Shown here in pieces: positions 19,269 through 38,956 of a stretch of DNA of 64,000 nucleotides. A program made the position numbers and the translations under genes. Within the stretch, counting starts at the first letter, position 1, and every line of letters starts with the position of its first letter. The stretch is from a bacterium 336/3 (lineage in GTDB: Bacteria; Bacteroidota; Bacteroidia; Cytophagales; Thermonemataceae): NCBI GenBank assembly GCA_001281695.1, contig LJIE01000001.1, positions 2,875,521 to 2,939,520 on the forward strand, given 5' to 3'. The notes below the pieces were generated by a model. That model saw only the letters and a list, made by a program, of their open reading frames with translations, ran no database searches and was not told the DNA's origin.

Positions 19269-20357
19269 TTAGAATTTTTGATGTTCGATTTTTTTTATTT
19301 TTTCCTGCCATTCTACTATTTGAGCATTGATTTCTAATATTTTTGAGCTAACCCAAAAGAAAAACAACATACTTACTAGCATCAATGTAAAGTTACCTAA
19401 ATTTCCTATCATTAAGCTTATAATCAACAAAATACACAATACAAATACAATCAGAATAGTTGCCATTTTATGCCCTAAACCTAAAGAAAGTACCAAATGA
19501 TGAAAATGTGTTTTATCAGCTTTGAAAGGGCTCTTTCCTTGTTTAATTCTAGCTCTATATACTCTTAGAGAATCGAAAACTGGTAGAAATAACACCCCTA
19601 TAATACTAGGAACAACTATTGATGTCTTTTCTATTTTTTGAGCAGATTGTATTAATATTATTGCTGATACAACAAATACAAATCCTAGAAATAGAGAACC
19701 AGCATCACCCATAAATATTTTTTTAGTTTTACTGAAATTATACTTCAAAAAACCAATCAGAGCTCCTATTAGTGAAAAGTAAAATATCATTAATGATTGG
19801 TTATTAGTAATCCATGCCAACCATGAAAAAACAATTAACCCAATAATTGCTAAACCAGCCACTAAACCATCTATACCATCCATTAAATTAAAAGCATTTA
19901 TCACTCCTGTTATTACTATAATAGTCAAAACATATTGCATTTCTGCTGGTATTTCATATATTCCGAGTATTCCATACATAGAAGTAATTTTAATCCCCTG
20001 TATAAAGCTAAAATGAGCTAGTAAAAGTTGAACTGCCAATTTTAATGAAGCTCGTATATCATTTTTGTCGTCTATTATTCCCACCAACAATAATATTGTT
20101 CCTCCTATCCATAGCCATTTAATTTTCAAAAAATCCTGCCAGCCTTGTATAGTTATTAGCATTGTAATTATCGAGGCTATCCATATACTAATTCCACCTA
20201 TTAAAGGTGTATTTTGGTTGTGGATTTTACGCATATTGGGTTTATCGACCAAGTTTATTTGAATAGCTATTTTTCTCAGTAAAGGGGTGATTATAAGCAC
20301 AAACATAAGAGATGTTATTACAACCATAATTTGAAGAAGCGTTTCCATAAGCATCAA
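19269..20357 (-). CDS. MraY/WecA-family undecaprenyl-phosphate sugar-1-phosphate transferase
   Basis: A 362-aa polytopic membrane enzyme that moves a sugar-1-phosphate (typically GlcNAc-1-P) from its UDP donor to undecaprenyl phosphate, the first step of exopolysaccharide or O-antigen assembly. Diagnostic motifs: VGIIDDKNDIRASLK (Mg-binding Asp pair, about 95), NAFNLMDGIDGLVAG (about 155), FMGDAGSLFLGF (about 215) and the cytoplasmic His motif KADKTHFHHLVLSLGLGH (about 280). About ten helices. It is the last gene of the locus, 3 nt after the DUF1972 glycosyltransferase. It fits the initiating enzyme for the polymer exported by the Wza/Wzc pair upstream. Confidence 0.9.
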   Translation of the reverse strand: MMLMETLLQIMVVITSLMFVLIITPLLRKIAIQINLVDKPNMRKIHNQNTPLIGGISIWIASIITMLITIQGWQDFLKIKWLWIGGTILLLVGIIDDKNDIRASLKLAVQLLLAHFSFIQGIKITSMYGILGIYEIPAEMQYVLTIIVITGVINAFNLMDGIDGLVAGLAIIGLIVFSWLAWITNNQSLMIFYFSLIGALIGFLKYNFSKTKKIFMGDAGSLFLGFVFVVSAIILIQSAQKIEKTSIVVPSIIGVLFLPVFDSLRVYRARIKQGKSPFKADKTHFHHLVLSLGLGHKMATILIVFVLCILLIISLMIGNLGNFTLMLVSMLFFFWVSSKILEINAQIVEWQEKIKKIEHQKF

Positions 20358-20360
20358 TAT

Positions 20361-21572
20361 TTAAATACCTTTCATTATTTTTAAATGAGAAATTTCTAAG
20401 TCTAATAAATCAGAATAATTCAGCCTCGTAATTTCTGTTTCTACCAATGATTTGTCTTTGATAGTAAGCACTTCTTGTATCAAGAAACTATATTTTTGAG
20501 CTATTAAAGACCATTTATATCTTTTCTCTGCTATTTGATACATCTGATAAGCCATATTTTTAAGAGTACTCATAGAAATATTTTTGATCTTATATTTCAA
20601 GTCTTCTATATCTTTAAAGTATAAAGCTTTATTCTCTGTTGTTACTTTATTATATGCCACTTCAAAAGCTATAATTGGTAACTCTAAATACATTGCTTCT
20701 ACTAAAGATGGATTTGTCCCACCTGCTGAATGTCCATGAATATATAAACTTGCATTACTACGAAGTATATCTAATTTTTCTTGTTCATAAATAGGATATA
20801 ATATTGTAATATTTGCATAGTCTTGATATTGTTCTTTAAGATCTAATCCATAAGTACTTTTATTCCAATTCCCAACTACCACCAAATGTATATTTTTGAG
20901 TTGAGCAAAGGCTTCTAGAATAATATGTACATTATTTTCTGGTTCTATTCTACAGACTTTAAAAGCATAAAAGTGATTTAGAAAAGGGTATTTTATTTCT
21001 GCTTCAGGTGTTTTTTTTACTTTTAAAACATGATCCGAGCCATATTCAATAATTCGACTAAGTGTACCATAACGGGCTGCTGTATAGTCTTGAATAGCTT
21101 CGTTATCAGAAATATCAATATGCGAGTATTTTACTGCTAAGCTCTCTGCCCAAAATAAGTACCATTTAGCGAGTATATTCCATTTACCTCGTTTCCATTC
21201 AATGCCATCTATTGAGATGATAATTTTCTTTTTAGTAAAAAGTCTCACAAAAGGAAGCAACCAAGCTCCTGCTACACCTAATATCAATAAAACATCAGCA
21301 TAAAGGACTGCATGGAGAATAGAAAGACTATCGTATATAATGCTTTGTATTCCATTTGCATCAAAGGGTAAATACTTTAGTTTAGCTCCTTTAAATGTTT
21401 TCGCTCTTTTACTTTGCTGATATTTTTTACCAGAGCAGTAAACTGTCATATCATAAGTAGAGCCTAAACACTCAACCAAATGTTCAGTAAGTGTTTCAAA
21501 ACCTCCATAATTGGCAGGTAAACCTACTGTTCCAATTATTGCTATTTTTTTCTTTTCAAAATACATAAACAT
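20361..21572 (-). CDS. DUF1972-type glycosyltransferase
   Basis: A 403-aa GT-B enzyme. The N-terminal domain matches the DUF1972 type found in rhamnosyl/galactosyl transferases: KKIAIIGTVGLPANYGGFET with the glycine-rich loop. The C-terminal donor domain includes VCRIEPENNVHIILEAF (about 205) and the conserved YIHGHSAGGTNPSLVEAMYL segment (about 280), whose Glu contacts the nucleotide sugar. It begins a new transcription unit after the 21660-21686 terminator and is followed 3 nt later by the WecA-like gene, so it may add the second sugar. The ATG at 21566 is an equally possible start. Confidence 0.85.
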   Translation of the reverse strand: MFMYFEKKKIAIIGTVGLPANYGGFETLTEHLVECLGSTYDMTVYCSGKKYQQSKRAKTFKGAKLKYLPFDANGIQSIIYDSLSILHAVLYADVLLILGVAGAWLLPFVRLFTKKKIIISIDGIEWKRGKWNILAKWYLFWAESLAVKYSHIDISDNEAIQDYTAARYGTLSRIIEYGSDHVLKVKKTPEAEIKYPFLNHFYAFKVCRIEPENNVHIILEAFAQLKNIHLVVVGNWNKSTYGLDLKEQYQDYANITILYPIYEQEKLDILRSNASLYIHGHSAGGTNPSLVEAMYLELPIIAFEVAYNKVTTENKALYFKDIEDLKYKIKNISMSTLKNMAYQMYQIAEKRYKWSLIAQKYSFLIQEVLTIKDKSLVETEITRLNYSDLLDLEISHLKIMKGI

Positions 21573-21703: not shown

Positions 21704-22783
21704 TTAAGTTAAAATCTGTAAGCTTTTTTGTGCAAAAAAATCCGCAGAAAACACTTCTATTCTTTTTTTTGAATTTTCTGAAAGGGTTGTATAATGTAGA
21801 GGATTATCTAAAACTGATTGAAGTACTCTATTAAGCATTGTCATATCTCGACTATCTACCATAAACCCAGTTTTTCCATCTTCAATAACCTCTGTAATAC
21901 CTCCAATGGCAGGAACAATTGCTGGTAATCCATATGCCATACCTTCAATAATTGTTAATCCAAAAGTTTCTATCCAACTATCTGGCTTAGATAAGTTCAG
22001 AATAATATCAGCCCACTGATAAAATGGATGTAGATTCGTTTGTACATCAAATATTTCTATATTATAAGGCATTGTTACATTTTTAAAAAATTGTTGTATT
22101 TCTGTTTGATGGGCATTAAGTACCAATTGAAAAAAATATTTAGGATTGTCAGAAGCTAATTGTATAAATTCATTTATACCTTTATATTCTTTTAAAGAAC
22201 ACACCATCAACACATTATTTTGTTTTTGTTTTTTCTCTCGATTTTTTTCGGCAATATTGAGAAAATGATTTTCTATAGAATTATAGATAATATGTGTTTT
22301 CTTATTTTTAATACAATAGTTATCAGATACATATTTTGAAACAAACACAATTTCATCTGCAAACATTTTTATCACCTTAAATAAAAACCATTTTAATATT
22401 TTAGGCTTTATACTCACCTCATGAACATGGTATATTACTTTACATCCTTTTAACTTACCCAAAAAAGCTGCTCCAAAAGGTAAAATTGTATTTACATAGA
22501 CTATATCTGTCTTTTTTACAGTTTTAAACATTTTTATCACCAACCAAATTTGGCTTAGTGTATAAAAAAACAAACGTAACCAACGATTTGAGGAGTATTT
22601 ATACCAGCCTTTATGGTAAATAACATGATTGATATCTGATAAAAAACCTTTATTTTGAGATGTATACAAATGAACACTATAACCATACGCCCCCCATGTT
22701 TTAAGAAGCTGCATTAATACTTTAGGGCTACCACTATAGTCGTTGAGCAAGTGAAAAGCGAATATTCTTTGTGTAATTTTCAT
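21704..22783 (-). CDS. Family 4-type glycosyltransferase
   Basis: A 359-aa GT-B glycosyltransferase. The N-terminal part contains FHLLNDYSGSPKVLMQLLKT (Gly/Ser loop) and VIYHVHEVSIKPKILKW. The donor domain contains VLMVCSLKEYKGINEF (about 190) and WIETFGLTIIEGMAYGLPAI (about 265), which holds the E-x7-E signature, followed by GGITEVIEDGKTGFMVD. It overlaps the preceding gene by 4 nt (ATGA), showing translational coupling. It acts in the cytoplasm on the lipid-linked EPS repeat unit; linkage unknown. Confidence 0.88.
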   Translation of the reverse strand: MKITQRIFAFHLLNDYSGSPKVLMQLLKTWGAYGYSVHLYTSQNKGFLSDINHVIYHKGWYKYSSNRWLRLFFYTLSQIWLVIKMFKTVKKTDIVYVNTILPFGAAFLGKLKGCKVIYHVHEVSIKPKILKWFLFKVIKMFADEIVFVSKYVSDNYCIKNKKTHIIYNSIENHFLNIAEKNREKKQKQNNVLMVCSLKEYKGINEFIQLASDNPKYFFQLVLNAHQTEIQQFFKNVTMPYNIEIFDVQTNLHPFYQWADIILNLSKPDSWIETFGLTIIEGMAYGLPAIVPAIGGITEVIEDGKTGFMVDSRDMTMLNRVLQSVLDNPLHYTTLSENSKKRIEVFSADFFAQKSLQILT

Positions 22784-23997
22784 AAGCTTTGATAGATTTT
22801 TTGTAATTGTTCACCTCTGATATTCCAGTGAAATTTTGTTTCAAACAGATTTCTTGCCTGATGGCTTGCAGAAGCATAGATTTTCTTATCTTTAAATATT
22901 TTCAAAATACTTTTTGCAAGATTTTGGATAGTATCCTTGTAGTTTGTAGGGGTAATAGCAAAACCACAAGACTCATCAATAAACTCCCCTGGACCTTCAT
23001 TTTTGAGACAAATTACAGGCAATCCAAAGGAAAGGGCTTCTGCAACTACCATTCCTGCACCCTCATGTGATGGGAATAAAAAAGCTGAGGAAGATTTATA
23101 GATTTCCATTAAGTCTATTCTATTAATCCAGTTTATGAACTGTACTTGTTTGTCTAAGCCACAATCATACACCATTTTCTTATACAAATCTTCTTCTTTA
23201 CCACTTCCTACTATAAGCAAACGACATTTTTGAGCTTCTTTTTCTGAAAGTGTCCGTATGAATTCATGAAAAGCCTGAATAGTTAAATCAAAACCTTTGA
23301 GAGGCACAAGCCTGCCTACAGAAATCAATGTAAATTGTTTTTGATCTTTTTGATAACCCATTCCATAGTCTTGTGTGGCTACGGATGGTATCACTGAAAA
23401 GTTGTCTTGTAAATTTAGATGAGATGCAACCTTAGAATTCATACAAATAATATGATTTGCTTTATCAATCGTATTCTTAAGAGCATTAGAAAATCTCCAA
23501 AATAGTTTCTTAATCAACCATTTTCCTTTTTCTTCTATTTGATATTTGAATGAATAAGGTTTTAAATATTCTTTTGGAATTGGTGAGTGATGTCCAACAG
23601 GTCCCCAAACAAAAGGTTTTTGTAGTTTCCATAAATAGGAAGGAGTCCAGTCATTATGAAAATTCAAGTTATGAGCAATATCAAAGTGAAGTTTTTTCTG
23701 TTTGATAAAATTCACTACTCCTTTTTGCCACATCCAATAATATAACATAGCTCCTCTTCCTCCTTTCTTCCAAAAACGCATCCAATAAGGCAAATCAAAA
23801 TAAAGGAACTGGATATTCTGATAAATCTCAGCAGGGTTCTCCTGCATGAATTTCCCAATAGTTGCTTGATTGTTTTCTCTTGTTACAACTATTACACGAT
23901 TAAATCTGGCTATTTGTAGAACAAAATTCCACCCCATACCATCTTCTGATCCTTTGTAGGGATTGATGGCGTATGCAGTCGCAAGGATTGTTTTCAT
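22780..23997 (-). CDS. Family 4-type glycosyltransferase
   Basis: A 405-aa GT-B enzyme. The N-terminus reads YAINPYKGSEDGMGWNFV, a Gly-rich acceptor-domain loop. The donor domain has LISVGRLVPLKGFDLTIQAF (about 230) and the SHEGAGMVVAEALSFGLPVI stretch (about 325) with the catalytic-site Glu residues. It overlaps both neighbours by 4 nt: the acyltransferase upstream and the next glycosyltransferase downstream. It is therefore part of the four-gene unit starting at 27079. It adds one sugar of the EPS repeat unit; the donor is not predictable from sequence. Confidence 0.88.
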   Translation of the reverse strand: MKTILATAYAINPYKGSEDGMGWNFVLQIARFNRVIVVTRENNQATIGKFMQENPAEIYQNIQFLYFDLPYWMRFWKKGGRGAMLYYWMWQKGVVNFIKQKKLHFDIAHNLNFHNDWTPSYLWKLQKPFVWGPVGHHSPIPKEYLKPYSFKYQIEEKGKWLIKKLFWRFSNALKNTIDKANHIICMNSKVASHLNLQDNFSVIPSVATQDYGMGYQKDQKQFTLISVGRLVPLKGFDLTIQAFHEFIRTLSEKEAQKCRLLIVGSGKEEDLYKKMVYDCGLDKQVQFINWINRIDLMEIYKSSSAFLFPSHEGAGMVVAEALSFGLPVICLKNEGPGEFIDESCGFAITPTNYKDTIQNLAKSILKIFKDKKIYASASHQARNLFETKFHWNIRGEQLQKIYQSL

Positions 23998-24689
23998 GCA
24001 GCTATTCTATTTTTGATTATTTTGGCAGGAACGCCACCTATAATACTATTACTTGGAAAAGATTGTGTTACAACTGCTCCTGCAGCAATAATACATCCAT
24101 CTCCTATTTCTACCCCATCCAAAATGGTTACCTTACTTCCTATCCAGCAGTTTTTTCCAATTTTGATACCTTTTCTATTCACACCCTGCCATCTGATAGA
24201 TTTTGAATAATCACTATAATGATGGTTTTCTGGGTGGCAACTAAAATATTGCCCAATAATACATTCATCTCCTATTTCTAAACCTCCTCCACCACCCAAA
24301 TAAGCAAATTCTCCTATTCCTACATGGTTTCCAATCCTGATAAATTCTCCTAAATGATGCAGTGAAGTAGATATTACAATTCTACTGAAGGATCCCAGAC
24401 TAAAATTATCTCCAATTTGTACTCCATCTTTACCTAATGCACTGATATACACATCATCTCCTAATTTCATAAACTTTCCAAATTTGATAGAAGGTGTATT
24501 GAAAAAACTTACATTTTTTCCAAGAATAGCCATTTTAGGGTTTTTAAAGCATAATAAAAGCTTGAATCCTCTTAAAAGCCCCCAGCATATATTCCAAATA
24601 AAGGAAACTAAAACCCATGATGTCAATTGAGTATCAAATGCAAATTGAGGGTTTCGTTGCTGAATCAAGTATTCTATGAACTTTTTCAT
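23994..24689 (-). CDS. Left-handed beta-helix acyltransferase
   Basis: A 231-aa acetyl/acyl-CoA-dependent O-acyltransferase of the hexapeptide-repeat (WcaF/VatD-like) superfamily, expected to decorate a sugar of the EPS repeat unit. Hexapeptide turns are clear from about residue 75 to 215 (VQIGDNFSLGSFSRIVI, IRIGNHVGIGEFAYLGG, IKIGKNCWIGSKVTIL, VEIGDGCIIAAGAVV). The loop HPENHHYSDYS (about 150) supplies the catalytic His typical of the family, and the end (IIGGVPAKIIKNR) is the family finish. It is coupled by 4-nt overlaps to the fusion kinase gene upstream and the glycosyltransferase downstream. Confidence 0.88.
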   Translation of the reverse strand: MKKFIEYLIQQRNPQFAFDTQLTSWVLVSFIWNICWGLLRGFKLLLCFKNPKMAILGKNVSFFNTPSIKFGKFMKLGDDVYISALGKDGVQIGDNFSLGSFSRIVISTSLHHLGEFIRIGNHVGIGEFAYLGGGGGLEIGDECIIGQYFSCHPENHHYSDYSKSIRWQGVNRKGIKIGKNCWIGSKVTILDGVEIGDGCIIAAGAVVTQSFPSNSIIGGVPAKIIKNRIAA

Positions 24690-27079
24690 ACTATTTTACT
24701 TGTAATTTCTTTGGTGATCGTTTTCAGTGTTTTTTGTAAATCTATATTCTCTATCACTAAATAATGATTAGGAGATTTTTTGTCTAATTGCCTAAAAAGA
24801 GTACTATATTGATGGTTTATGTGTTCTATATCTTCTTGTTTTAATTCTTTCTTACGATTTAGAATAGTATGAGCATCTGCATACAAGAAGAAGTTAAGTT
24901 GAGGTTTCAATAAGAAACAATATCCTAATTTCATAATCCATTTAGGCAGTATGATATTGCTACGAACACCATCGTTGATAAAATCAAAGTAATAACGGTC
25001 GTATAAAACCACATCACCACGTAAAATGTACTTAAAGTGAATAATAATTTGTCCTAAAAGGTAGTCTGTATAGTAATAAGCAAAACGAAGTAAAGAACTT
25101 ATTACATTTTTATTTTTACCCTGTCTTGGTAAGGTCTGAGCTGTATCTCGTTCAGCTTTTTCTTTCCCTTTTGTCCATGCACTCAAAATAGGTAAAATAG
25201 AAGGCCTGTGGCGAAGGATAATCACTCTTTTTCTTAATCTCTTCTCCAATTCTTTTTTAGATAATTCAATCACTGTAGATTTTCCAGCTCCGTCTGCTCC
25301 ACTAAATGTAATCATCATACCTTTTGAGAACATTATTCTTTTAACCACATCCATATAATAATGTACTTTATTGAGCCATTTATTCATTCCTAAATTAAAA
25401 GGTTGTCTTAGTAGATATTTTATTAAGTATCTATGATTAGTCTTGTCTTCCAAGAAAAATGGATATAATAGACTATCAACCTCCTCTGAACTTTTGCCCA
25501 AGATTTCTTCGTAAGGAGTGTATTTAGTAGGTATATTTTTACCATTTAAACCATAGAAAAAGCCAATATATCTGATAGAGTTCATTAATGATACTTTTTT
25601 GGTACCCTGTAAATCAGTATAAGCTGTTTTTAAAATTTCTTTCATATCTAGAAACTGTACTGACTTTCTTTTGAAGCTATGAATCAAGTCTATACTTAAA
25701 ATACTATTTTCTGTCGTTTGAATAAGAATATTAGAATATGTATGATTATTTGTAAAAACAGCTCTTTTTGTAAGAGAATGATTTTTTAAATATTCTACCA
25801 AAGAATTGGCTAAAGGTTTTTGTATACAAATATCTATATCTGAGTACTCTTCTAATTGTTCTGGGGAAGATTCAGGGAGTTTAAGACCTGCATATTCTTG
25901 CTTGAATAAAAAATCAAACGTATCAAGAATTAATAGTTTTCGATGAACTACATGATTTTTGAGTGCAAAACTAATAGCATCGTTCCATGTATTGAGTAGC
26001 CAATTTACTTGTTTGTGCCATTGGTGTTGTTCAGAAAAGATTTCTAAGTAGTTAATTGTATTAATAATCAGATATAAAGAAAGATATGTTCTGAAACAAA
26101 AGTCATCTTTTAGTTTAAAAGCCTTAATAGTTTTATATAATTCATTTTCTATTTCTGTCCAATTTTTATGTTCTATCAAAATTCCTTTTTGAATGATGTA
26201 ATGAAATGCATCAAAGGCTAAAGGGTAATTTTCTGATGCAAGTTCCCAATCGTATATAAAAAGTTTCTGATTGGTTGTTTTAAGCATATTCCAAGGTGTA
26301 AAATCCCCATGAGCCAATGAAACCATTATATCAGAATCATCAATAGATTGTATTAGAGATTTTAGTTTCTTAAGCATTCCTTGTGGAATAGTGAAACTTT
26401 GTTTGGTAGTAAGATTTTCCAATCTACTTTCTATTTCATGGTATTGTAAGAAGTCTTTTTTTGAAGTTTTTTTACCCATCTTCAAAAATATCTCTGTCAA
26501 TACACGATAATGAATAGTTTCAAAATTAAGTGTACGTGTTGAATTTCTTGTGCAATCTGATAATTTAATGTGTTGATTAGTTTCTCCTAGTATTTCAGGG
26601 ATATAGAAAGACTTGAAAGCGAAAGTATTTAAAGTATTGATGATATGTTTTTCTTTTAATATTAATTTTTCGGAAGCTGTATTTAAAGCTATTTTCAGAA
26701 ACAATCCTTGATTATATTGATTTCTAACATAAACCAAGTATTTTCTGTTAGGTCCAGTAGTACCTGTAAAAATAGATATATTACTCTCCCAATAGTTTTT
26801 CAATACACTATCATTTTCAGCTATTTCTGCATATACTTTCTTATGAATCCATAAAATATGTTGTAAATGTAGCCCAAATATTATTTTGCAAACCCATACA
26901 AAAAATTTAGATTTTAGAGTATTTGCATTATAAAACCTAAGAAATTCGGGTTTTTCATTATCCACAGACCATATCCAGCGAGGTGTACCATCTGGATTAA
27001 CAATGTAGTAAAAAGCTTTAGACACATTTGTTCTACTTTTTACTATTTTTAAACCTAAAACTGACATGATATTTTCCAT
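24686..27079 (-). CDS. Three-part fusion: APH-type kinase, nucleotidyltransferase-like middle, thymidylate-kinase-like C-terminus
   Basis: A 797-aa soluble protein heading an EPS sub-operon. Residues about 100-330 form an aminoglycoside/choline-kinase-like domain: catalytic loop SLAHGDFTPWNML (H257, D259, N264) and Mg-binding IYDWE (D277). Residues about 385-560 contain a SDIDICI motif (D414, D416), as in nucleotidyltransferase-fold proteins. Residues about 590-797 form a P-loop kinase of thymidylate-kinase type: FSGADGAGKST (K600) and LYDRYYFDF (D694, R695). All three sites look intact. Phosphorylation or nucleotide activation of a sugar or other EPS substituent is the likely role; the substrates are unknown. 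The start could be codon 5 (MSVLG). Confidence 0.75.
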   Translation of the reverse strand: MENIMSVLGLKIVKSRTNVSKAFYYIVNPDGTPRWIWSVDNEKPEFLRFYNANTLKSKFFVWVCKIIFGLHLQHILWIHKKVYAEIAENDSVLKNYWESNISIFTGTTGPNRKYLVYVRNQYNQGLFLKIALNTASEKLILKEKHIINTLNTFAFKSFYIPEILGETNQHIKLSDCTRNSTRTLNFETIHYRVLTEIFLKMGKKTSKKDFLQYHEIESRLENLTTKQSFTIPQGMLKKLKSLIQSIDDSDIMVSLAHGDFTPWNMLKTTNQKLFIYDWELASENYPLAFDAFHYIIQKGILIEHKNWTEIENELYKTIKAFKLKDDFCFRTYLSLYLIINTINYLEIFSEQHQWHKQVNWLLNTWNDAISFALKNHVVHRKLLILDTFDFLFKQEYAGLKLPESSPEQLEEYSDIDICIQKPLANSLVEYLKNHSLTKRAVFTNNHTYSNILIQTTENSILSIDLIHSFKRKSVQFLDMKEILKTAYTDLQGTKKVSLMNSIRYIGFFYGLNGKNIPTKYTPYEEILGKSSEEVDSLLYPFFLEDKTNHRYLIKYLLRQPFNLGMNKWLNKVHYYMDVVKRIMFSKGMMITFSGADGAGKSTVIELSKKELEKRLRKRVIILRHRPSILPILSAWTKGKEKAERDTAQTLPRQGKNKNVISSLLRFAYYYTDYLLGQIIIHFKYILRGDVVLYDRYYFDFINDGVRSNIILPKWIMKLGYCFLLKPQLNFFLYADAHTILNRKKELKQEDIEHINHQYSTLFRQLDKKSPNHYLVIENIDLQKTLKTITKEITSKIV

Positions 27080-27205: not shown

Positions 27206-27226
27206 GACTTAGTAATTTACTAAGTC
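27206..27226 (-). terminator. Terminator overlapping the end of the polymerase gene
   Basis: A 10-bp perfect stem, 27206-27215 (GACTTAGTAA) and 27217-27226 (TTACTAAGTC), followed on the minus strand by six T residues. The last codons and the TAA (27211-27209) of the wzy-like gene are inside the stem, so termination is built into the coding end. Confidence 0.8.
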
Positions 27227-28507
27227 CTTTCTTCTTTTCTTTAATTGTACTCTTTGTTTAGGAGTGAGAATTGAGCTCTTTTTAAAGGAAATGTAAAGAA
27301 TCATGAGTTGATAGAACAGAATGCCATAATTGGATTCACCAAAAATGCCAAATTCTGTAAAAGAATTGATAATTAAAGGAATAAAAAGACTCAATAGCAT
27401 GAGTTTCTTCTCTTTATTCTCTCTGAAAATTCCTCGAAAAGTAAATACCATTTGAAATATTACGATTGTAAGTCCCACAAACCCTAAATTCATTAATACT
27501 TGCATGAACGTATTATGAGTCATTTTTCCTGGGTAAGTATGAGCACTCTGAAAATACTCTTTATAATCAATTCTCATAAAACCAAAGCCCAAAAGAGGCT
27601 CTCTAGGCAAACCTTCGTTGATGAGAGCTGTCCAAAATGGTAAACGCCCTGTCATACTCAATACTTCTTCCATACGGCTTGTATCACCATCTTTCAAAAC
27701 AACTTTATAGATAGCTACAGGTGATATAACCATCAATCCCACCATAATTATCATTTTTATACGTTTATTATCAGACTGCATTACATGAAATCCGATAATA
27801 AGCAATGCCCCTATCAGTGAAGAGCGAGAACCCGTTGCATACAATCCATAAAAAAGAATGATTAATTTAAAAATAGTCCATTTTCTGGAATGATTTCTTT
27901 TTAAATCAAATAATAAACCTGCAACTCCAACACCAGCCAGCATTCCTAATTCATTGGGGTTCATTAAATATCCTCCCAATCTAGCTTCTTCTCCTCCATG
28001 AGTCATCCGATAAAATACGTCAGGGTTTACCCACATTCCTATTACGAATATTAATATCAAGATAAAACAGCTATTTCCAAGTAAATTATAAAGTCTGATT
28101 TTATGATTTGGAAAGTATTCATCTAATAAATACAGGCTCTTTATAAAATAATAACAAAATACTAGTGTTTGGGTAGTCATAAACCATTGTAATGCACTAT
28201 AACCTACATTGGTACTCCAAAGAAAAGATGCTAATCCTAAAAATAAATAAATAATATAAAAAGTGGAAGAAAGAATATTATGGGTTCGAAGTGAATCTAC
28301 AGCTCCAAATCGAATAATTTTTTGATAGACTACATAAGAAAAAAATAGCATGCCCATTCGTCCTATTACTTTAATAACTCTGGTAATCACTACATTTTCA
28401 CTCCATGTAAAAAAACAAGCCACCATCAGCAACAGCAACCAAAATAGTTGTTGATCTACAAGTTTCAAGAACTTTTCTTGTTTTCTATCAAATGTTATAT
28501 TTTCCAA
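27209..28507 (-). CDS. O-antigen ligase/polymerase-type membrane protein (Wzy-like)
   Basis: A 432-aa polytopic membrane protein with about eleven hydrophobic helices and the large periplasmic loop typical of the Wzy_C/O-antigen ligase family. The loop contains GLPREPLLGFGFMRIDYKEY and then HTYPGKMTHNTFMQVLMNLG, where the conserved H-N (THNTFMQ) matches the ligase/polymerase signature. It probably polymerises flipped lipid-linked repeat units in the periplasm. It abuts the glycosyltransferase gene upstream with no gap. Its last codons lie in the terminator stem at 27206-27226. Confidence 0.85.
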   Translation of the reverse strand: MENITFDRKQEKFLKLVDQQLFWLLLLMVACFFTWSENVVITRVIKVIGRMGMLFFSYVVYQKIIRFGAVDSLRTHNILSSTFYIIYLFLGLASFLWSTNVGYSALQWFMTTQTLVFCYYFIKSLYLLDEYFPNHKIRLYNLLGNSCFILILIFVIGMWVNPDVFYRMTHGGEEARLGGYLMNPNELGMLAGVGVAGLLFDLKRNHSRKWTIFKLIILFYGLYATGSRSSLIGALLIIGFHVMQSDNKRIKMIIMVGLMVISPVAIYKVVLKDGDTSRMEEVLSMTGRLPFWTALINEGLPREPLLGFGFMRIDYKEYFQSAHTYPGKMTHNTFMQVLMNLGFVGLTIVIFQMVFTFRGIFRENKEKKLMLLSLFIPLIINSFTEFGIFGESNYGILFYQLMILYISFKKSSILTPKQRVQLKKRRKDLVNY

Positions 28508-29608
28508 TTAGCTATATAATTTATCATATTCATTCACAAGAATATCCCATGCAAATACTTCTTTGAGCATTTTTATATTGTTCATACCAAAGTGACTTAC
28601 ATTTTGGGCATCATACATTTTTTTGATTGTTTCAAAAGCCTGTACTAATTCTTGTTCTGAGTTATTTTCAATAGCTATGCCAGCATCATAATTTTGAATA
28701 TATTCTGCAATATTTGTCGCATGTGTAACCACAGAAGGAATGCCTAAAGCTGCCACTTCTAAAACAGACGATGGAAGCCCCTCATTCCTTGAAGGATGAG
28801 CAAAAACATGCATTTTACTTAATAGTTCTTCCTTTTCTTTACCAAATTTTTTACCCCAAAAAATTACATTTTGGAGCTGTTTTTCTTTTATCTGATTTTC
28901 TAAAAAGCTTCTTCCTTTTCCATCTCCAACAATCCATAATTGGGAATTTCGGTTTGTTTTTTGGAAAACTTCAAATGCATTCATTAATAAATCTAAACCT
29001 TTTGTATAAACATCTAATCTACCCATAAAGCCTATTACAAAACCTGATTGATAAGGTTGTGAACTCTTTTTATTTTCTACAAAATCAAATCCATAAGGCA
29101 ATAAGAATGATTTACTATTTGGGAAAATACTATCAAGCCCTTTCATTTCTGTTTTACCAAGAGAATGAATTTTATAAACTTTTTCTAATAGCTTTTTTTC
29201 AAAAAGATGAAAATATAGTTTTTTCATCCATTTACTTCTTTTCATGGCTATGGTATTATAAGCTCCATGAGGTGTCAAAACAAACCTAATTTGATATTTA
29301 GCAAATAAAATAGCCAAACTACTATAAATAGGTATCCATCCTCCATGTAAATGAAATACAGCTTCCTTTTTTTCCAGTATTGCTTTTTCTAAGGTTACAT
29401 CAATTTTAAAAGGATTTTTATGTATTGGAAAAAGTCTCGTTTCAAAACTTCTTTCAGGATAATTATGTGTCAAATCTTTCGATATTCCCCAAAGACTTAC
29501 TTGTTTATTAGCTTTTGATTGCTCACTTACAAGCTGATAAACAACTTTATTTACACCATTCAACCTTTCGGGATTGGCTTTGCCGAGTATTAAATGAATG
29601 ATTTCCAT
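28508..29608 (-). CDS. Family 4-type glycosyltransferase
   Basis: A 366-aa GT-B glycosyltransferase. The acceptor domain contains LNGVNKVVYQLVSEQSKANK (Gly loop, residues 15-35) and FVLTPHGAYNTIAMKRSKW. The donor domain has FVIGFMGRLDVYTKGLDLLM (about 190) and HVFAHPSRNEGLPSSVLEVA (about 275), with the conserved Glu pair. The flippase gene overlaps its start by 19 nt and the polymerase gene follows at once. It is part of the main EPS transcript starting at 34194. Confidence 0.88.
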   Translation of the reverse strand: MEIIHLILGKANPERLNGVNKVVYQLVSEQSKANKQVSLWGISKDLTHNYPERSFETRLFPIHKNPFKIDVTLEKAILEKKEAVFHLHGGWIPIYSSLAILFAKYQIRFVLTPHGAYNTIAMKRSKWMKKLYFHLFEKKLLEKVYKIHSLGKTEMKGLDSIFPNSKSFLLPYGFDFVENKKSSQPYQSGFVIGFMGRLDVYTKGLDLLMNAFEVFQKTNRNSQLWIVGDGKGRSFLENQIKEKQLQNVIFWGKKFGKEKEELLSKMHVFAHPSRNEGLPSSVLEVAALGIPSVVTHATNIAEYIQNYDAGIAIENNSEQELVQAFETIKKMYDAQNVSHFGMNNIKMLKEVFAWDILVNEYDKLYS

Positions 29609-30810
29609 ATTGAAAATTTCTTAGTGAGTAAAATAGTCTGCCAAAATAAAATTAGAATAACCTGAGAAGAAATAAGTCCAATCAATACACCTATCAAACC
29701 CCAATGTGAAAGCATAAAGTCAAATGAAACGATTGTAAATGCAAAACTGATAAGATAACCATAGAAAAAATACTGGTTTAAGATAAGCACTCTGATGGCT
29801 ATTCTAATGGGTTGATTGATAAATATCAGAATATATAAAATTACCATTCCATTGATAAGGAAAGCATGTTCTGCATATTCTACACCTCCTGCCATAACAA
29901 TTATAGACTCTGAAAACAAAGTAAAAAGTAATAGAATAAAGCCAAACCAGTAAAAAGCCTGCTTATTGGAATGGGCAAGATAACCAATAGCATGTGTGGT
30001 AGATTTTGAGAGATGATAAGAAGTTTGGGGAATAATGTAATTCTCAAACACTTGTAAAAGCATATTTAATAATCCGAAAAGACTCTGAACAAGCCTTAAA
30101 GCTCCTAAGGCTTGTACTCCTAAGTACACCCCCGAAGCTACCACGAACAAATTGGAAGCTCCCCATTGTACCAAAGAAGACATGATAAGCCATTTTCCTT
30201 CTTTAATATGATGAAACCAGTATCCTTTCCAATCCTTATAATTAAAATTGTAAGGTTTTAAATAAGTCATTAATATTAGAATAACTAATAAATAGCTAAA
30301 AGATTGATAGATACAAATGTTCTCAATAGTAAGGAGATTAGTCCAAATAAGCCATAATATGGACATTATTTGCATTAAACTTGCCAAAATATCCAGATAA
30401 AGAGTCTCCTTTAATTTATTAAGTGATAATAATATCTTCCGAGCATAATCATTGAGTGTAAAACCTACTCCAAACAGCCACAGAGATACATTTAAACTTT
30501 GCTTGGTAGGTATGAAGATAATATATAGAATTGTTGTGAGAAGTGCTACACAAACAATTTCTAACCAAAATGTAAAAGATTTGTACGTTTCCTTATTTTT
30601 TTGGTCGCTTACCTGAAAAGGCTGTATTACAAGTCCACTAATCATACTGATTACAAAGTACAATACCAAAATTACTCCTGAAAACACTCCAAAAGAGGTT
30701 TTATCTAAATTACGGGCAATAACCAATGTAGTTAAGAATGTTGTTCCACTGAATACAACCTGATCTGTAACTATGAGCCATTTTTTATTTTGATATAACT
30801 TTTGAAGCAT
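29590..30810 (-). CDS. Polysaccharide flippase (Wzx/MOP superfamily)
   Basis: A 406-aa membrane protein with about twelve hydrophobic helices and few charges. The opening (WLIVTDQVVFSGTTFLTTLVIAR) is the usual first helix of Wzx-type flippases, with the polar Asp/Gln followed by the IARNLDKTSFGVFSG turn. It would flip undecaprenyl-linked repeat units to the outer face of the inner membrane. It overlaps the chain-length gene upstream by 26 nt and the glycosyltransferase downstream by 19 nt, showing tight coupling. Assignment is by topology, the N-terminal pattern and context. Confidence 0.8.
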   Translation of the reverse strand: MLQKLYQNKKWLIVTDQVVFSGTTFLTTLVIARNLDKTSFGVFSGVILVLYFVISMISGLVIQPFQVSDQKNKETYKSFTFWLEIVCVALLTTILYIIFIPTKQSLNVSLWLFGVGFTLNDYARKILLSLNKLKETLYLDILASLMQIMSILWLIWTNLLTIENICIYQSFSYLLVILILMTYLKPYNFNYKDWKGYWFHHIKEGKWLIMSSLVQWGASNLFVVASGVYLGVQALGALRLVQSLFGLLNMLLQVFENYIIPQTSYHLSKSTTHAIGYLAHSNKQAFYWFGFILLLFTLFSESIIVMAGGVEYAEHAFLINGMVILYILIFINQPIRIAIRVLILNQYFFYGYLISFAFTIVSFDFMLSHWGLIGVLIGLISSQVILILFWQTILLTKKFSIWKSFI

Positions 30811-33004
30811 AGCTTATTTTGTTTTTTAGTGATACACATAATTCTATGGTTTTTCTAAATACTACTTTTATGTCCTTCAGCAAACTGGGATTATATCCGT
30901 ATCTATTAAGCATGAAATGTATATTGGGCAATTGGAATTCCTCCTTCATTAAATCTACCTTTAAAATACTTTTTGCTGGAGAAAGTCGAGTATCTACACA
31001 TACAAGATTTAGATCTGCAAGTGCCATTGTGGGTAGAGTCAATTGTTTCCCTATACTTTCATTCAGGATAAATACTTGCTCAAATTCAAGTGTATGGCTT
31101 TTTATGAATTCTTGAAACTTTTGATTTGAAAACCTTTTGATTTGCTGTGTATTTATATGAAGTACAGCTACATTTTCATCTATATATTCTATACTTTGAG
31201 AACTTTTAGGAGCATTAAAGTCTATCAATAAAGCTTTTCTACCTTGCAAAGCATAATTATTCAACAAATTCTTTGTTATAAAAGAAGCTCCTTCTACAAG
31301 ACTGAAACCTGTCAGACAAGTAATTCCATGATTTTTCAATAGATTTTTAATTTCTAATTGTGTGATAGTTTTTAGAAAGTAATCTTCTATTTCTTGTTTT
31401 TTTAGTTTGGGTATTGTTGCTACAATAGGTATCATAGAATTTTCTTCAATAGTTTCCTTATCGTTTACTCTTGCTTTCAAGGCATGTACTAAAAATATCA
31501 GAAGCATTGCTCCCATCATCCCTAATAGAGATGACACAATTTTAATAATTGTTTTATTAGGTGAAACAGGCTCTTTTGAAGCCATTGCAGGTGTTATAAT
31601 TTTATGAAAAGCTATTTTTGCAGCTTGAGCAATTTCTGCTTCTATCTTTTTTTCATTCAAGAAGTTGTATGTATTCTGATAAATATTAAACTCTCGATTG
31701 TAAATGGTCATCATGTACTCTTTTTCGGGTACAGGTACAAGTTCCGATGAAGCCAACACAATATCTTTGTTTAGATTATTATACTTACTTTCAAGATTTT
31801 TACGAGTATTGGTGATACTCTCTATCATGTAGCTTGTTAAATCGTTAATTTTCGAATCTATGACTTTTACTCTCTCATCATGAGAGGTATAGGTCATCAG
31901 TAAATCTCTTTTTTCTGCTTGCAAATTCTTGACTTTCTTTACAATTTCTGTTGAAAGTAAATCTGTAAATGCCTCAAAATTAGGTGCTAGTTCCAAAAAA
32001 TTATCTTTACCATTTTGGATATACTTTTCTAAATCTTTTACAGCATCCAAGCTCATTTTTAAATTGGTTTGCTGAATTTTTAGTTGAGATATAGTCCTTA
32101 GATTCGTTTCCGTTTCTTGTCTTAAATTTGTAATCCCCTTTTGATTACGATAGCTCAAAATTTGTTGTTCAGATTGAGAAAGCTTGGTTTGAATCCCCTT
32201 AATTTGGTTCCCTAGAAAATTGACAGCAGTATTGGCAGCACTATATTTAGATTCTATATAATCTTCAATATAGGCTTTGGCTAATGCATTAGGTAAAGCT
32301 GCTGCTTTGTGTGGGTGTGCTGATTTATAACTAATTCTGATAACAGGCACATCCTTATCAACGGCCATAATATTAAGGTTTTGGCTTATTTCTTTTAACA
32401 CTTTATCTTGGCTATTAACAATAAACTCATAATTATCTGTTAATTTCAAGTCTCTTCTCTGCTCAAACAAGGATTGGTTCAGCTCTAACATTAATTTTGT
32501 ATGATTTAAAATCAATGTATCTCCTATTTTTCCAAATACTTTTCTCCCAGAATTATCTTCTATGATAAAAGTCTGATTTTTTAAAAGATTGAGCTGAAAC
32601 CTTTTATCCTCGATGGTTTTTGTGGTGTTAAAAGTCTTTATCTTGAAAGGAGCGTCATCATATAATTCTACTTTCTTGATTTTACCTACTCTAAATATTT
32701 GAACGTGGAAATCAATACTTTTCAATGCTTTTTCTAAAATTGTTTGTGATTTTAAAACTTCTATTTCAGCATTAATTTTATTAGTAGAAGCAAAAACATC
32801 TAAATCTTTAAACAAATTACTATTCGGCACACCCTCTCCAATATCAGCTAAGCGTAGTTTAGCTGTACTTTCGTACATTGGTGTTACATATTTCAAATAT
32901 CTTGAAGCTATTAAATAGGTTATGACCATTAGAATTACGATAATAGGTAATCCACGCAGGTAAGGCTTTAAAAATCTTAAACTTTCTCCCATAGTTATAA
33001 TCAT
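30785..33004 (-). CDS. Wzc-like chain-length/export protein with a degenerate BY-kinase domain
   Basis: A 739-aa inner-membrane protein. Residues about 15-40 and 485-510 are the two membrane helices flanking a large periplasmic Wzz/GNVR region with coiled coils; KEPVSPNKTIIKIVSSLLG is the usual proline-rich second helix. The cytoplasmic end looks like a tyrosine kinase of the Wzc/CpsD type, but the Walker A is ruined: CLTGFSLVEGASFITKN stands where PGEGKS/T is expected. A Walker A'-like ALLIDFNAPK remains, and no Tyr cluster is seen at the C-terminus. It probably still sets length and contacts Wza but lacks kinase activity. It starts directly after the Wza-like stop (TAAATG). Confidence 0.82.
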   Translation of the reverse strand: MIITMGESLRFLKPYLRGLPIIVILMVITYLIASRYLKYVTPMYESTAKLRLADIGEGVPNSNLFKDLDVFASTNKINAEIEVLKSQTILEKALKSIDFHVQIFRVGKIKKVELYDDAPFKIKTFNTTKTIEDKRFQLNLLKNQTFIIEDNSGRKVFGKIGDTLILNHTKLMLELNQSLFEQRRDLKLTDNYEFIVNSQDKVLKEISQNLNIMAVDKDVPVIRISYKSAHPHKAAALPNALAKAYIEDYIESKYSAANTAVNFLGNQIKGIQTKLSQSEQQILSYRNQKGITNLRQETETNLRTISQLKIQQTNLKMSLDAVKDLEKYIQNGKDNFLELAPNFEAFTDLLSTEIVKKVKNLQAEKRDLLMTYTSHDERVKVIDSKINDLTSYMIESITNTRKNLESKYNNLNKDIVLASSELVPVPEKEYMMTIYNREFNIYQNTYNFLNEKKIEAEIAQAAKIAFHKIITPAMASKEPVSPNKTIIKIVSSLLGMMGAMLLIFLVHALKARVNDKETIEENSMIPIVATIPKLKKQEIEDYFLKTITQLEIKNLLKNHGITCLTGFSLVEGASFITKNLLNNYALQGRKALLIDFNAPKSSQSIEYIDENVAVLHINTQQIKRFSNQKFQEFIKSHTLEFEQVFILNESIGKQLTLPTMALADLNLVCVDTRLSPAKSILKVDLMKEEFQLPNIHFMLNRYGYNPSLLKDIKVVFRKTIELCVSLKNKISYASKVISK

Positions 33005-33757
33005 TTAAAATGCTCCTTTAAAAATAACAGCTGCTGTAAGTGCTGTTGTAAAAGGGATAATGATGGATATTCTCTTGTCAAATTCTTTATATTTTTTGGC
33101 AGGTACTACTACCACATCCCCTGGTTCTAGATTGATATTTTTCTTTAGATAATCTCCTGATTTTGTAAGATTGATGTTGGCAACATGTACATGCTCCCCT
33201 ACTTGTCTGAATACCTTAATATGCTTTACATTGGCATAAAACTCAAACCCTTTGCATTTGGCAATCATTTCAAGAAGTGTATTTTTTTCTTTATCTATTG
33301 TGATTACTTGTGGGTCTCTAACTTCTCCTATAATTGTAATTTCTCTGTTCAAGACTTTTACATCTACAATTGGATTTTTTACCCATTCACTAAACAATGT
33401 TTTTAGAGTATCTTTGAGTTGAATCAATGTTCTGTTTTTTACATAGAGTCTTCCTATTTTAGGAACTTCAATATTTCCATCACTATCTACCATCAACCAT
33501 TTGCCATATACTTCATTAGAGTTATAAATACCATAACTTGAGCCAATACCCAAATCATCTTGTTTCCATACACTGATGCTTATTTTGTCATCTTTTCGGA
33601 TGTGGTACTGATAATTTTTATTGAAGTAAAATATGCTATCTAAAGCAACTGTGCTATTATTGACTTTTTTATCTACAAATAGATTAGTAGTTTTGCATGA
33701 TGCAAAGAGTAGCAGTGCCGATAGCATATATATGGCAAATATGATGATAGACCTCAT
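33005..33757 (-). CDS. Wza-like outer-membrane polysaccharide export lipoprotein
   Basis: A 250-aa lipoprotein (lipobox LLLFASC, Cys about 21). The poly_export domain spans about 50-150 (YQYHIRKDDKISISVWKQDD; GNIEVPKIGRLYVKNRTL; NPIVDVKVLNREITIIGEV). An SLBB domain follows (about 155-230; EKNTLLEMIAKCKGFEFYAN; LEPGDVVVVPAKKYKEFDKR). A short hydrophobic C-terminal helix ends it (IIPFTTALTAAVIF), as in Wza-type barrels. It would form the outer-membrane exit for the polymer. It comes 2 nt after the receiver-protein gene and directly before the Wzc-like gene. Confidence 0.9.
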   Translation of the reverse strand: MRSIIIFAIYMLSALLLFASCKTTNLFVDKKVNNSTVALDSIFYFNKNYQYHIRKDDKISISVWKQDDLGIGSSYGIYNSNEVYGKWLMVDSDGNIEVPKIGRLYVKNRTLIQLKDTLKTLFSEWVKNPIVDVKVLNREITIIGEVRDPQVITIDKEKNTLLEMIAKCKGFEFYANVKHIKVFRQVGEHVHVANINLTKSGDYLKKNINLEPGDVVVVPAKKYKEFDKRISIIIPFTTALTAAVIFKGAF

Positions 33758-33759
33758 AA

Positions 33760-34194
33760 CTATAAATATTGAAAGATTGATTTAAAAATAGAAGGTTTGC
33801 GAGAACGGATAATTTCTTTGACTGTTACAATTTTCGTTAAAATGTTTTTTAACTGTTCTTCTAGATTTGCTCCTTTCTGAATATAGTCAAATGCCCCGTT
33901 CTTAAGTACATCGATAGCCGTTTGAATATCTTCTTGAGCTGAAATCATCACTGTGAAGATATTAGGGTCATATCTTTTGATTTTTCTAAGAACTTCATAA
34001 CCATTGTAAGTATCCATACAATGATCTAAAAATATAATATCTGGTTTTACATGAATTTGATTTAAGCAGTCTAAGCCACTTTCAAAAAGTGTTGTGTCTG
34101 TTTGACCTTGATTATGAATAATCTGTTCAACCATATTCAGATGAAATATATCATCATCTACTATAAATATTTTAAAATTTTCGCTTCTAGACAT
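33760..34194 (-). CDS. Stand-alone receiver protein at the head of the EPS operon
   Basis: A 144-aa CheY-like protein: acidic pocket (FIVDDDIFH, D13-D15), phospho-acceptor D57 (IIFLDHCMD), switch residue region TVMISAQED, and the conserved Lys in YIQKGAN. No DNA-binding output domain; the tail is a basic amphipathic stretch (RSRKPSIFKSIFQYL). It is the first gene of the main EPS transcript and the last protein of the signalling set. It may accept phosphate from the Hpt domain of the kinase at 34373-38416 and act by protein contact, for example on the export complex. Confidence 0.88.
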   Translation of the reverse strand: MSRSENFKIFIVDDDIFHLNMVEQIIHNQGQTDTTLFESGLDCLNQIHVKPDIIFLDHCMDTYNGYEVLRKIKRYDPNIFTVMISAQEDIQTAIDVLKNGAFDYIQKGANLEEQLKNILTKIVTVKEIIRSRKPSIFKSIFQYL

Positions 34195-34372: not shown

Positions 34373-37300
34373 CTATACTTTTATTTTTGAGGCGACAACT
34401 CGCAATGATTCTATGATTTCTATTACTAGTGAAGTCAAATTCTGTTTATCAATATTTTCGATAGGATATTTCTCTAAAACTCTAATTTTGTCTTTTAGAG
34501 AAATTATATTCATTTGGTCTATACTAGGTTTAATTTTATGAGCTGTTTTTTGTAGAGTTACAATATCCATCTCTGATAAAGCTTTTTCAAATACTTTAGT
34601 ATTTTCCTCTACAATATTACAAAATATTTGAAGCATTTTTTGAATGAAAGCTTCATTACCTCTACTCATTTCTGTCAAATATGACAAATTAAATAATTCC
34701 TTTGGTTGTTCATCTGGTTTTGCATCTGATAATTTTTGTATAGACTGATTTAAGTAATGCTCTATTTTCCTAAAGAATTCTTGTTCATCATAAGGTTTGG
34801 TAATAAAATCGTTCATTCCTTTAGATAAATACAATTCTATATCGTGTTTAAAAGCATTGGCTGTTAGGGCTATAATAGGTATCTCTAATTTTAGGGTGTT
34901 TCGGATATATTGTGTAGCTTCTACACCATCCATTTCAGGCATCTGAATATCCATTAAAATCAAATGAAAAGATTCTTTTTTCAATATATCAACAGCTATT
35001 TGTCCATTTTCAGCCTCTACAATATCACATCCTAAATATGCCAAACTTTGTACGGCTATAAATCTGTTCATTTCATTATCTTCTGCAAGTAGTACCTTAC
35101 AACCTTTAAATTCATCTTTTTTAATGTTATTACTTTGTGTTATTAATTTTGAAGCTTCTCCAATAGGCAATTCCAGTTCAAAAGTACATTTCGTTCCTTT
35201 TCCTTTCATACTTTGCACTTCAAGTTCTCCCCCCATTAGTTTTACCAAATCATGAGAAATAGCCATTCCTAAACCAGTGCCTTCAAATTTGCGATTTGCA
35301 GAATCTTGTTCTTGAGAGAATTTATCAAAAATTCTTGAAATAAATGCTTGTGACATGCCTATTCCACTATCTTCTATTTCAAACTTGATTTTTTGTTTAT
35401 TTTCTGATATTTCTATAACATTAACTGAAAGACTCACAAAACCTTCTTCTGTAAATTTGATAGCATTTCCTATCAAGTTAATTAAGACTTGCTTTATTCT
35501 AACCTCGTCACCAATCAAAGCTGGTTTTATATCAGGACTTACCTGAAGTCTGAAATCCAACTTTTTTTCTTTTGTTTGTGAGTACAAAATACTTTGTACG
35601 TTGTATGCTAAAGCATTCAAACTAAACTCTTTATTGATAACATCTAACTCTCCAGACTCAATTTTTGCGATATCTAATATATTGTTTACAATAGTTAGTA
35701 GATGTTTAGCCGAAGATTCAGATTGTTTAACATAAAACTGTTGCTGTATATTAAGATTTTCCTTGTTGAGCTGTCGAACCATCCCAATAATTACATTTAA
35801 AGGAGTTCTAATTTCATGGCTCATATTCGCTAAAAACAATTCTTTAGCTTTAGCTGCTGCTTCCGCAAACGATTTAGCTTCTGCAAGCTGTTTTTCAAGA
35901 ATTTTTTGTTCTGTTATATCCAGATGAATCCCTATACTTCCTATCAATTGCCCTTTATCATTGTAGTTAGGTGCTCCACTGATAAACCACCAACGTTTTT
36001 CACCTTTTTTATTAAAAACTTCTAACTCATAACTATCCGAAATACCATGCTCTCGAGCTTTATTTTTTGTAGCTATCATCTCTTTTTTATCCGCCTCAAT
36101 AAACTTTTCTGATGCTTTACACCCTTTCAGTTCGTTTAAGGTATATCCTGACATTTCACAGAAACTCTGGTTAGCAAAAATGATGGTATCATCATTATCT
36201 ACTTCCAAAAGCCCCAAATTCATGTTTGCGATAATATTTCTAAATTTCTCTTCTTGAATAGTTAATTGTTTCTCCCATTTCTGTCTATTTCTGATATTGA
36301 TGAGCATTTGTCCAAAAAGAAACAATAATCTTTTTTCTTTTTCAGAGTATTCATGATGTTTTTGTACAGAATCGAAACCCACAAAACCTACCAATGTTTT
36401 ACCATCTATCATAGGAATTGAGATTAAACTTTTTATACCTTGAGGCTCTAAAATAGATTTAAGTCCACCTTCTCCATCATCTTCAAGAGCTAATACATCT
36501 GGAACATAGAAAGGTTCACCTTTTTTATGTTTTTCTACCCATTGAGGAAAGAACTCAATAGGAACATCTTGAAGGTTATTAATTTCTGCACTTATATTGT
36601 TATAACACCATTCATAAGTATTGGAAGTAGTATTATTATCAAAATCGTAGTCAAAAATATAAGCTCTGTCAGCTTCCACAAAAAGCCCTAATTTCTCTAA
36701 AGATTTATTGATAGTAGTTTCTACTTGTCCCAAGTCCAGATTGATATAAGTAGAAGCAATATCTATTAGAATTTCTTGCAATCTTACCTCTTGAATCAAG
36801 TTATCTTCTGCAAAAAACTGTGAAGTTCTATCTACCAATACTCCATCTATACGAATAGGTTCACCTTTTTCATTATAAATAATTTTTCCTTTATTTCTTA
36901 CCCATTTTACTTCGCCTGTGTTGGTTACTACACGATGCTTTACAGTATATTCTCCATACTGTTTGAGTGTTTCTAAAACTAAAGATATAATAGATAAATC
37001 GTTTGGGTGAATAGCCTTTTCCCACCATTTTGGAGTATCAAACCAATAATCTAATTTTTCACCCAGTAATTTTTCAACAGAAGGGGTAGCAAAAATAAGT
37101 TTATAGTCAGGTAAACTTGCTGACCAAACTACATCTGTCATTTCATTAAAAATACTTTCTAATTTTTGTTTAGCATCAAGTAATTGGTTTTCAGCAAATT
37201 TTCGTTCTGTAATGTCTCTTGAGTTAGCTACTACAAAACCTTTTCCAGCTATTTCCAAATATTGGACAGTTACTTCCACAGGAAAATATTTTTGAGTAGC

Positions 37301-38952: not shown

Positions 38953-38956
38953 AATC

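Follow-up and report, generated by a model that had tools for sequence, protein, structure and literature searches.

The phospho-hexose of pseudomycoidin is reported to be formed by a kinase together with a nucleotidyltransferase in vivo, a result not tested in vitro (PMC8498205), and Campylobacter Cj1415-Cj1418 are reported to be required to make cytidine diphosphate (CDP)-phosphoramidate 3'-phosphate for capsule decoration from glutamine, ATP and CTP (PMC11800397). Here we analyse a gene of bacterium 336/3 (Bacteroidota) in a stretch of 64,000 nucleotides (contig LJIE01000001.1, positions 2,875,521 to 2,939,520; the window, meaning this whole stretch). Its product joins an APH-type kinase, a polymerase-beta-type nucleotidyltransferase (NT) and a P-loop kinase resembling thymidylate kinase (TMK) in one chain, and the gene belongs to one conserved Wzx/Wzy-type exopolysaccharide (EPS) operon common to many Bacteroidota. 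We tentatively propose, at somewhat short of an even chance, that the fusion prepares a group, phosphorus-containing and activated by a nucleotide, that would be joined to the repeat unit of this EPS before flipping. The pseudomycoidin pair, in which kinase and NT yield a phospho-sugar link as proposed for the fusion, differs in acting on a peptide, and the passages of PMC8498205 consulted mention no TMK-like component. Cj1415-Cj1418, required for a nucleotide-activated phospho-donor for capsule (PMC11800397), resemble the proposed role in EPS, but are separate genes rather than one fused chain. Both are likened to the fusion by reaction, not by family. The domains are of known kinds, and their combination and operon are uncharacterised as far as the literature was searched: among the open-access matches listed there was no paper on a kinase/NT/TMK fusion or its operon, and no characterised homologue of the fusion was found, hence none with an unrelated role. 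The gene and its parts are as follows.

24686..27079 (-): three-domain protein, APH - NT - TMK-like, 797 amino acids
25964..27079 (-): N-terminal extension and APH-type kinase, residues 1-372 (fold, conserved motifs)
25328..25954 (-): polymerase-beta-type NT and variable helical linker, residues 376-584 (fold, triad D414/D416/D464)
24689..25327 (-): TMK-like P-loop kinase, residues 585-797 (fold, motifs)

The initial annotation had proposed this open reading frame (24686-27079, 797 amino acids, minus strand), its three activities and its EPS setting. Its length and strand were borne out, as was the overlap of 4 nt (24686-24689) that it shares with the acyltransferase gene. Every residue the annotation had named (H257-G-D259, N264, D277, D414, D416, K600 and D694-R695) was found in the translation, and its APH, NT and TMK-type assignments agree with fold and invariant catalytic residues, structure prediction, which it had suggested, supporting the APH, middle and C-terminal folds alike. 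The roles that it had put forward, namely phosphorylation of a substituent, activation with a nucleotide, nucleotide recycling or capping of EPS chains, stay conjectural. A full-length AlphaFold2 model (mean predicted local distance difference test score, pLDDT, 90.6; predicted template modelling score 0.89) places the APH-type kinase at about residues 100-372, the NT at 376-518 and the TMK-like P-loop kinase at 585-797. Its input was a 64-row alignment of the window protein with 63 rows chosen by hand from 88, the 25 left out being the window's own copy, duplicates, near relatives of included loci and one contig-truncated copy; the wider alignment holds all 88 rows (own copy, some duplicates and the truncated copy included) plus the window protein. 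The split forms, the partial copy of genome G012 and the distant matches described below are in neither alignment, and row L079 of the 64-row set has masked letters. The APH-NT-TMK order is retained across the 63 relatives at 32-45% identity, which argues that the motifs are not chance resemblances, and folds and conservation together rule out a chance motif match. Mean identity to the window protein is 57% for the TMK-like part and 33% for each of the APH and NT parts, and conservation of the same catalytic columns in the wider alignment ranges from 92% (H257) to 100%. As judged from sequence and model, this is a single chain of three folded, catalytically intact-looking domains; the protein is the sole match to itself in its own genome (E<=0.01).

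The N-terminal extension has conserved R34, W35 and F46-Y50, and the APH-type domain a G-loop (105-113), K129, E143, HGDFTPWN (257-264), DWE (277-279), D290 and H293. D259, N264, D277, E279, D290 and H293 are each present in 64/64 rows and H257 in 61/64, the other three having Q. Foldseek comparison of the full model with the PDB returned a macrolide phosphotransferase (8ixi, E 4.9e-6) and LicA (4r77, E 1.1e-5); macrolide phosphotransferases and the LicA choline kinase are the nearest APH-type folds among the matches listed, the likeness to LicA being one of fold only (sequence E 0.035). The HGDxxxxN motif and metal-site aspartate of PF01636 are both present, and the window protein scores below the cut-off of that family (15.4 versus 23.2), as does the separate APH protein of G155 (21.9), those of Leisingera (24.4) and Agrobacterium (24.2) being above it. 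Fold and HGD...N...D motif are thus shared with LicA-type choline kinases and macrolide phosphotransferases, from which the window protein differs in its score below the Pfam cut-off, its conserved N-terminal extension and its fusion to two further domains.

The middle domain, modelled alone, reached a pLDDT of 96.4 and matches polymerase-beta-type nucleotidyltransferases. The best Foldseek match quoted is JHP933 (4ok0, E 8.6e-5), with FKRP and other polymerase-beta-fold enzymes also among the matches. VIA gave Z 11.0 against 4ok0 (root-mean-square deviation, rmsd, 4.2; 154 aligned) and Z 8.7, near the tool's caution level, against each of ANT(2'')-Ia and MenT1; FKRP is not among the 50 VIA matches listed, which excludes nothing. 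D414 and D416 occur in 64/64 rows, as does D464, a third carboxylate overlooked in the initial annotation, and fold, DxD and third carboxylate together identify the domain as polymerase-beta-type. PF14907 (NTP_transf_5) matches 10 of the 64 members at E<=1 (best 1.8e-4) and the next family 3, with no match for the window protein. The shared fold and three carboxylates connect the domain to PF14907, JHP933, ANT(2'')-Ia and MenT1; it is set apart from such enzymes by the missing PF14907 match, its place in an EPS operon and its fusion to kinases.

The TMK-like domain shows G594-x-D-G-x-G-K600, RHRP (623-626), D672, DRYYFDFI (694-701), D703, R706 and RKxE (742-745). G594, D596, G597, G599, K600, T602, D694 and R695 are each found in 64/64 rows, RHRP in 64/64 and DRYYFDFI.D in 63/64. 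In the Foldseek comparison the full model matched the thymidylate kinase 3hjn (E 3.5e-6), and VIA aligned the C-terminal part with Thermus TMK over 181 residues (Z 18.7, rmsd 2.9). Together with the P-loop kinase fold, GxDGxGK[ST] and DR are the features of PF02223 (Thymidylate_kin), whose cut-off is narrowly passed (27.8 versus 27 bits), while the score for TIGR00041, the deoxythymidine monophosphate (dTMP) kinase model, is far below its cut-off (29 versus 83.25 bits). The thymidine-site motif, DR followed by [ST]xxAY, occurs in 0/64 aligned rows; as a control, the pattern matches the motif letters of Thermotoga TMK, L104 and L105. A dTMP kinase role is therefore not supported, although the TMK type put forward initially holds for the fold. 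The clade has the fold, P-loop and DR motif in common with thymidylate kinases but not [ST]xxAY after DR, has its own DRYYFDFI.D and RHRP, and by signature is not a thymidylate kinase.

That this part nevertheless serves as the cell's thymidylate kinase, or as another nucleoside monophosphate kinase, is extremely unlikely. The narrowly passed PF02223 cut-off speaks for such a role, as does the finding that the window's genome, 99% complete, gives no TIGR00041 match at E<=1e-5, its best PF02223 match outside the window being a guanylate kinase. However, TIGR00041, which matches 13 of 14 control genomes, also misses Bacteroides ihuae and may simply overlook the TMKs of Bacteroidota as too divergent, and PF02223 stays below its cut-off throughout 14 of the 19 genomes compared (self and relatives), which therefore have neither a focal-type protein nor a TMK that the model recognises. 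A housekeeping thymidylate kinase was rejected as the principal explanation on the TIGR00041 score, the absent thymidine motif and this genome comparison.

The gene lies within the following set, transcribed in the same direction.

19269..20357 (-): PF00953 polyprenyl-phosphate sugar-phosphate transferase, likely initiator
20361..21572 (-): DUF1972 glycosyltransferase GTc3, with homologues in the Leisingera and Agrobacterium loci
21704..22783 (-): GT4-type glycosyltransferase GTb7, with a homologue in the Agrobacterium locus
22780..23997 (-): GT4-type glycosyltransferase GTa2, with homologues in all four distant split loci examined
23994..24689 (-): hexapeptide acyltransferase, next gene after the focal gene, 4-nt overlap
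27209..28507 (-): Wzy_C-type polymerase POL5
28508..29608 (-): GT4-type glycosyltransferase GTu4
29590..30810 (-): probable Wzx flippase, from position and length only, with no clear Pfam family
30785..33004 (-): Wzc-type co-polymerase, its C-terminal kinase-like part apparently without the P-loop lysine
33005..33757 (-): Wza-type export protein (Poly_export, SLBB)
33760..34194 (-): response-regulator receiver protein
34373..38416 (-): PAS/GAF hybrid histidine kinase with HNOBA region, upstream of the operon
38407..38952 (-): haem-NO-binding protein (H-NOX type, PF07700), adjoining the histidine kinase
38957..40306 (-): sigma-54-type response regulator (best NCBIfam match PEP_resp_reg, below cut-off)

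A search of genome contigs with the focal protein confirmed 115 loci, of which 80 were kept, many of them cut by contig ends; neighbours were clustered automatically and their labels are approximate. The domain order, which the initial annotation had suggested looking for in other EPS loci, recurs, mostly in fused form, within a conserved operon, in keeping with the EPS setting it had assumed. The dominant gene order is Wza, Wzc, flippase, glycosyltransferase, Wzy, focal gene, acyltransferase, two glycosyltransferases, DUF1972 glycosyltransferase and PF00953 initiator; a histidine kinase and regulators lie close by. Among the 80 loci, GTa2 is present in 73, the DUF1972 glycosyltransferase in 70, polymerase and acyltransferase in 66 each, Wzc in 59, and Wza and initiator in 55 each; with the window and L096-L100 added (86 loci), the polymerase directly precedes the focal gene in 53/81 and the acyltransferase directly follows in 67/82. 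Hymenobacter and some other loci are partly rearranged or have extra genes, and in Hymenobacter swuensis the operon is on a plasmid. Since the loci were found through the focal protein, these counts are biased and cannot show how often the operon occurs without it. In 395 Bacteroidota genomes the focal protein has matches in 13 at 1e-5, comprising eight full-length fused forms (window's genome included), the split form of G037, the partial form of G012 and distant matches in G155, G179 and G183, and the operon polymerase has matches in nine at 1e-15, exactly the eight fused and the one operon-split (G037) genomes.

The Wzy protein (27209-28507) is 63-68% identical in six of the eight other genomes that have it, and 50% and 43% identical in the remaining two; 63-68% seems high for a polymerase, the adjoining focal protein being 41-43% identical in the same six genomes. 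One contig labelled Limnohabitans (L024) bears the Bacteroidota operon, a label that is probably wrong, as the sample of that genome's phylum reproduces the match positions of the Bacteroidota sample. Downstream of the operon (16663-18036) lies a protein whose weak similarity to the MslH epimerase model (E 1.7e-11) falls far short of the cut-off. The H-NOX protein, HNOBA kinase and sigma-54 regulator upstream (34373-40306) raise the possibility that the EPS in the window's genome is made in response to nitric oxide or some other gas.

The kinase-like C-terminus of Wzc (30785-33004), inspected by eye, reads TGFSLVEGASF, with A where the P-loop lysine is expected. In the Wzc cluster, counting members of at least 650 residues, window included, and omitting shorter ones, 40/57 lack GK[ST] after residue 480 and 13/57 keep EGK[ST], so that, to go by these motifs, pseudokinase Wzc may be common in the focal operon. 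This lends something to a different explanation, in which the kinase sites of the fusion would modify lipid-linked intermediates or proteins of the EPS machinery in place of the degenerate Wzc kinase, thereby controlling polymerisation or ending chains. We consider it improbable, as the 13 Wzc proteins with EGK[ST] stand beside the same focal family and the focal locus has Wzy, Wzc and Wza. Chain capping (WbdD) is known from ABC-transporter pathways, and with a Wzx/Wzy-type locus capping is less likely and is kept only within this explanation.

Where the fusion is split, the break falls between APH and NT-TMK, and both genes remain in one EPS cluster. In G037 (L096) they adjoin each other inside the same operon, in G155 and G179 (L097, L098) they stand side by side among polysaccharide genes, and on plasmids of Leisingera sp. 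M658 (L101) and Agrobacterium leguminum (L102) the two occur as separate genes within a single EPS cluster that also contains deoxythymidine diphosphate (dTDP)-rhamnose genes. Coverage of other phyla came from a set of 72,556 plasmid records: the Leisingera NT-TMK query matches four Leisingera records, one Agrobacterium record and one Hymenobacter record (fused), and the Leisingera APH query matches the same four Leisingera records and the Agrobacterium record, a co-occurrence of 5/5 that amounts to only two independent plasmid cases, as the four Leisingera copies are 89-100% identical. By eye, the split forms retain the NT triad, P-loop, DR, and the HxD...N and DWE motifs of APH, with two deviations, HRD in G179 and Y in place of H293 in G155. 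The existing annotation is 'hypothetical protein' for the stand-alone NT-TMK genes and for the fused protein of Hymenobacter swuensis (HSW_RS00875), and 'phosphotransferase' for the stand-alone APH genes in L101 and L102. That APH and NT-TMK recur together across different EPS clusters points to a single pathway; judging by the split forms, NT-TMK seems to be the older unit.

All four distant split clusters examined also have a GTa2 homologue (23.5-29.6% identity over 409-415 columns). GTc3 homologues occur in the two alphaproteobacterial clusters (43.6-44.5% identity) and a GTb7 homologue in the Agrobacterium cluster (34.6%), and GTu4 matches all four distant clusters as well, more weakly or over shorter lengths except in L098. 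The persistence of GTa2 favours the chief rival explanation, donor synthesis, in which APH would act as an anomeric sugar kinase, the NT would make an unusual nucleoside diphosphate (NDP)-sugar for GTa2, and the TMK-like part would supply or modify the nucleotide. AmgK and MurU, an APH-type kinase followed by a nucleotidyltransferase, offer a precedent. However, the usual NDP-sugar pyrophosphorylases have another fold than the polymerase-beta type of the middle domain, and the TMK-like step would be superfluous in such a scheme; we regard this explanation as unlikely.

A further possibility, that the protein is mostly structural with some sites no longer used, draws on the partial copy in G012 (L100:9238-11142, elsewhere L010), which by eye has an intact APH motif, E and N at two of the NT carboxylates and no P-loop. 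This copy adjoins glycosyltransferase homologues and regulators; most of the operon is absent and the genome has no polymerase match, so that it may be decaying, or else it is a form using the kinase alone. The catalytic residues kept in 64 rows, and a TMK part that is the most conserved of the three, make a mostly structural role very unlikely.

What we observe, namely three folds, invariant active sites, operon membership and parts that stay together when split, leads us to prefer the preparation of an activated, phosphorus-containing group by a cytoplasmic enzyme with three sites, dedicated to one conserved EPS. Also in its favour are the two precedents, the presence of the operon polymerase in the same nine of 395 genomes as the fused or operon-split protein, and the observation that, among the operon genes scanned, an acyltransferase is the only other enzyme that would handle non-sugar groups. 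In this scheme the APH domain would use ATP to phosphorylate a hydroxyl group on a sugar or small alcohol; the NT would link a nucleotide (or sugar-phosphate) to the phosphate so made; and the TMK-like domain, of a fold class that phosphorylates phosphate groups of nucleotides, would phosphorylate either this intermediate or the nucleotide set free. The product would then be used or received by a glycosyltransferase, GTa2 being the likeliest candidate, and the activated group would be built into or onto the repeat unit ahead of flipping.

Several points weigh against this proposal. Substrates, step order, product and cellular location all come from inference, and the precedents may be compared by reaction only, not by enzyme family. 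We recognised no distinct transferase in the operon that is evidently devoted to a phospho-group. The G012 copy, with its altered NT and missing P-loop, fits poorly, and G183 has the TMK-like protein alone, with neighbours bearing xanthine-dehydrogenase-type and antiporter domains, so that the link of the TMK-like clade with EPS is not a strict one; a 44-residue APH-type match also stands alone, without the other domains, in Nonomuraea. Lastly, linkage inflates the co-occurrence, as the genes of the operon may be transferred all together (those of Hymenobacter swuensis are plasmid-borne), and operon linkage with joint transfer would give the same picture.

A more specific and quite improbable version is that the one polypeptide makes a doubly phosphorylated nucleotide donor, 3'-phospho-activated as in 3'-phosphoadenosine 5'-phosphosulphate (PAPS) or CDP-phosphoramidate 3'-phosphate. 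The donor would serve a phosphate-linked decoration that defines one Bacteroidota-wide EPS, itself akin to polymers that some alphaproteobacterial plasmids encode. If so, the TMK-like clade would constitute a new kinase class acting on nucleotide conjugates. This operon keeps nearly the same gene order over many Bacteroidota lineages, although EPS loci as a rule vary widely. Working out the reaction would show the chemistry behind a widespread environmental polymer, and would give a function to proteins such as HSW_RS00875 and to a TMK-like clade that by signature is not thymidylate kinase.

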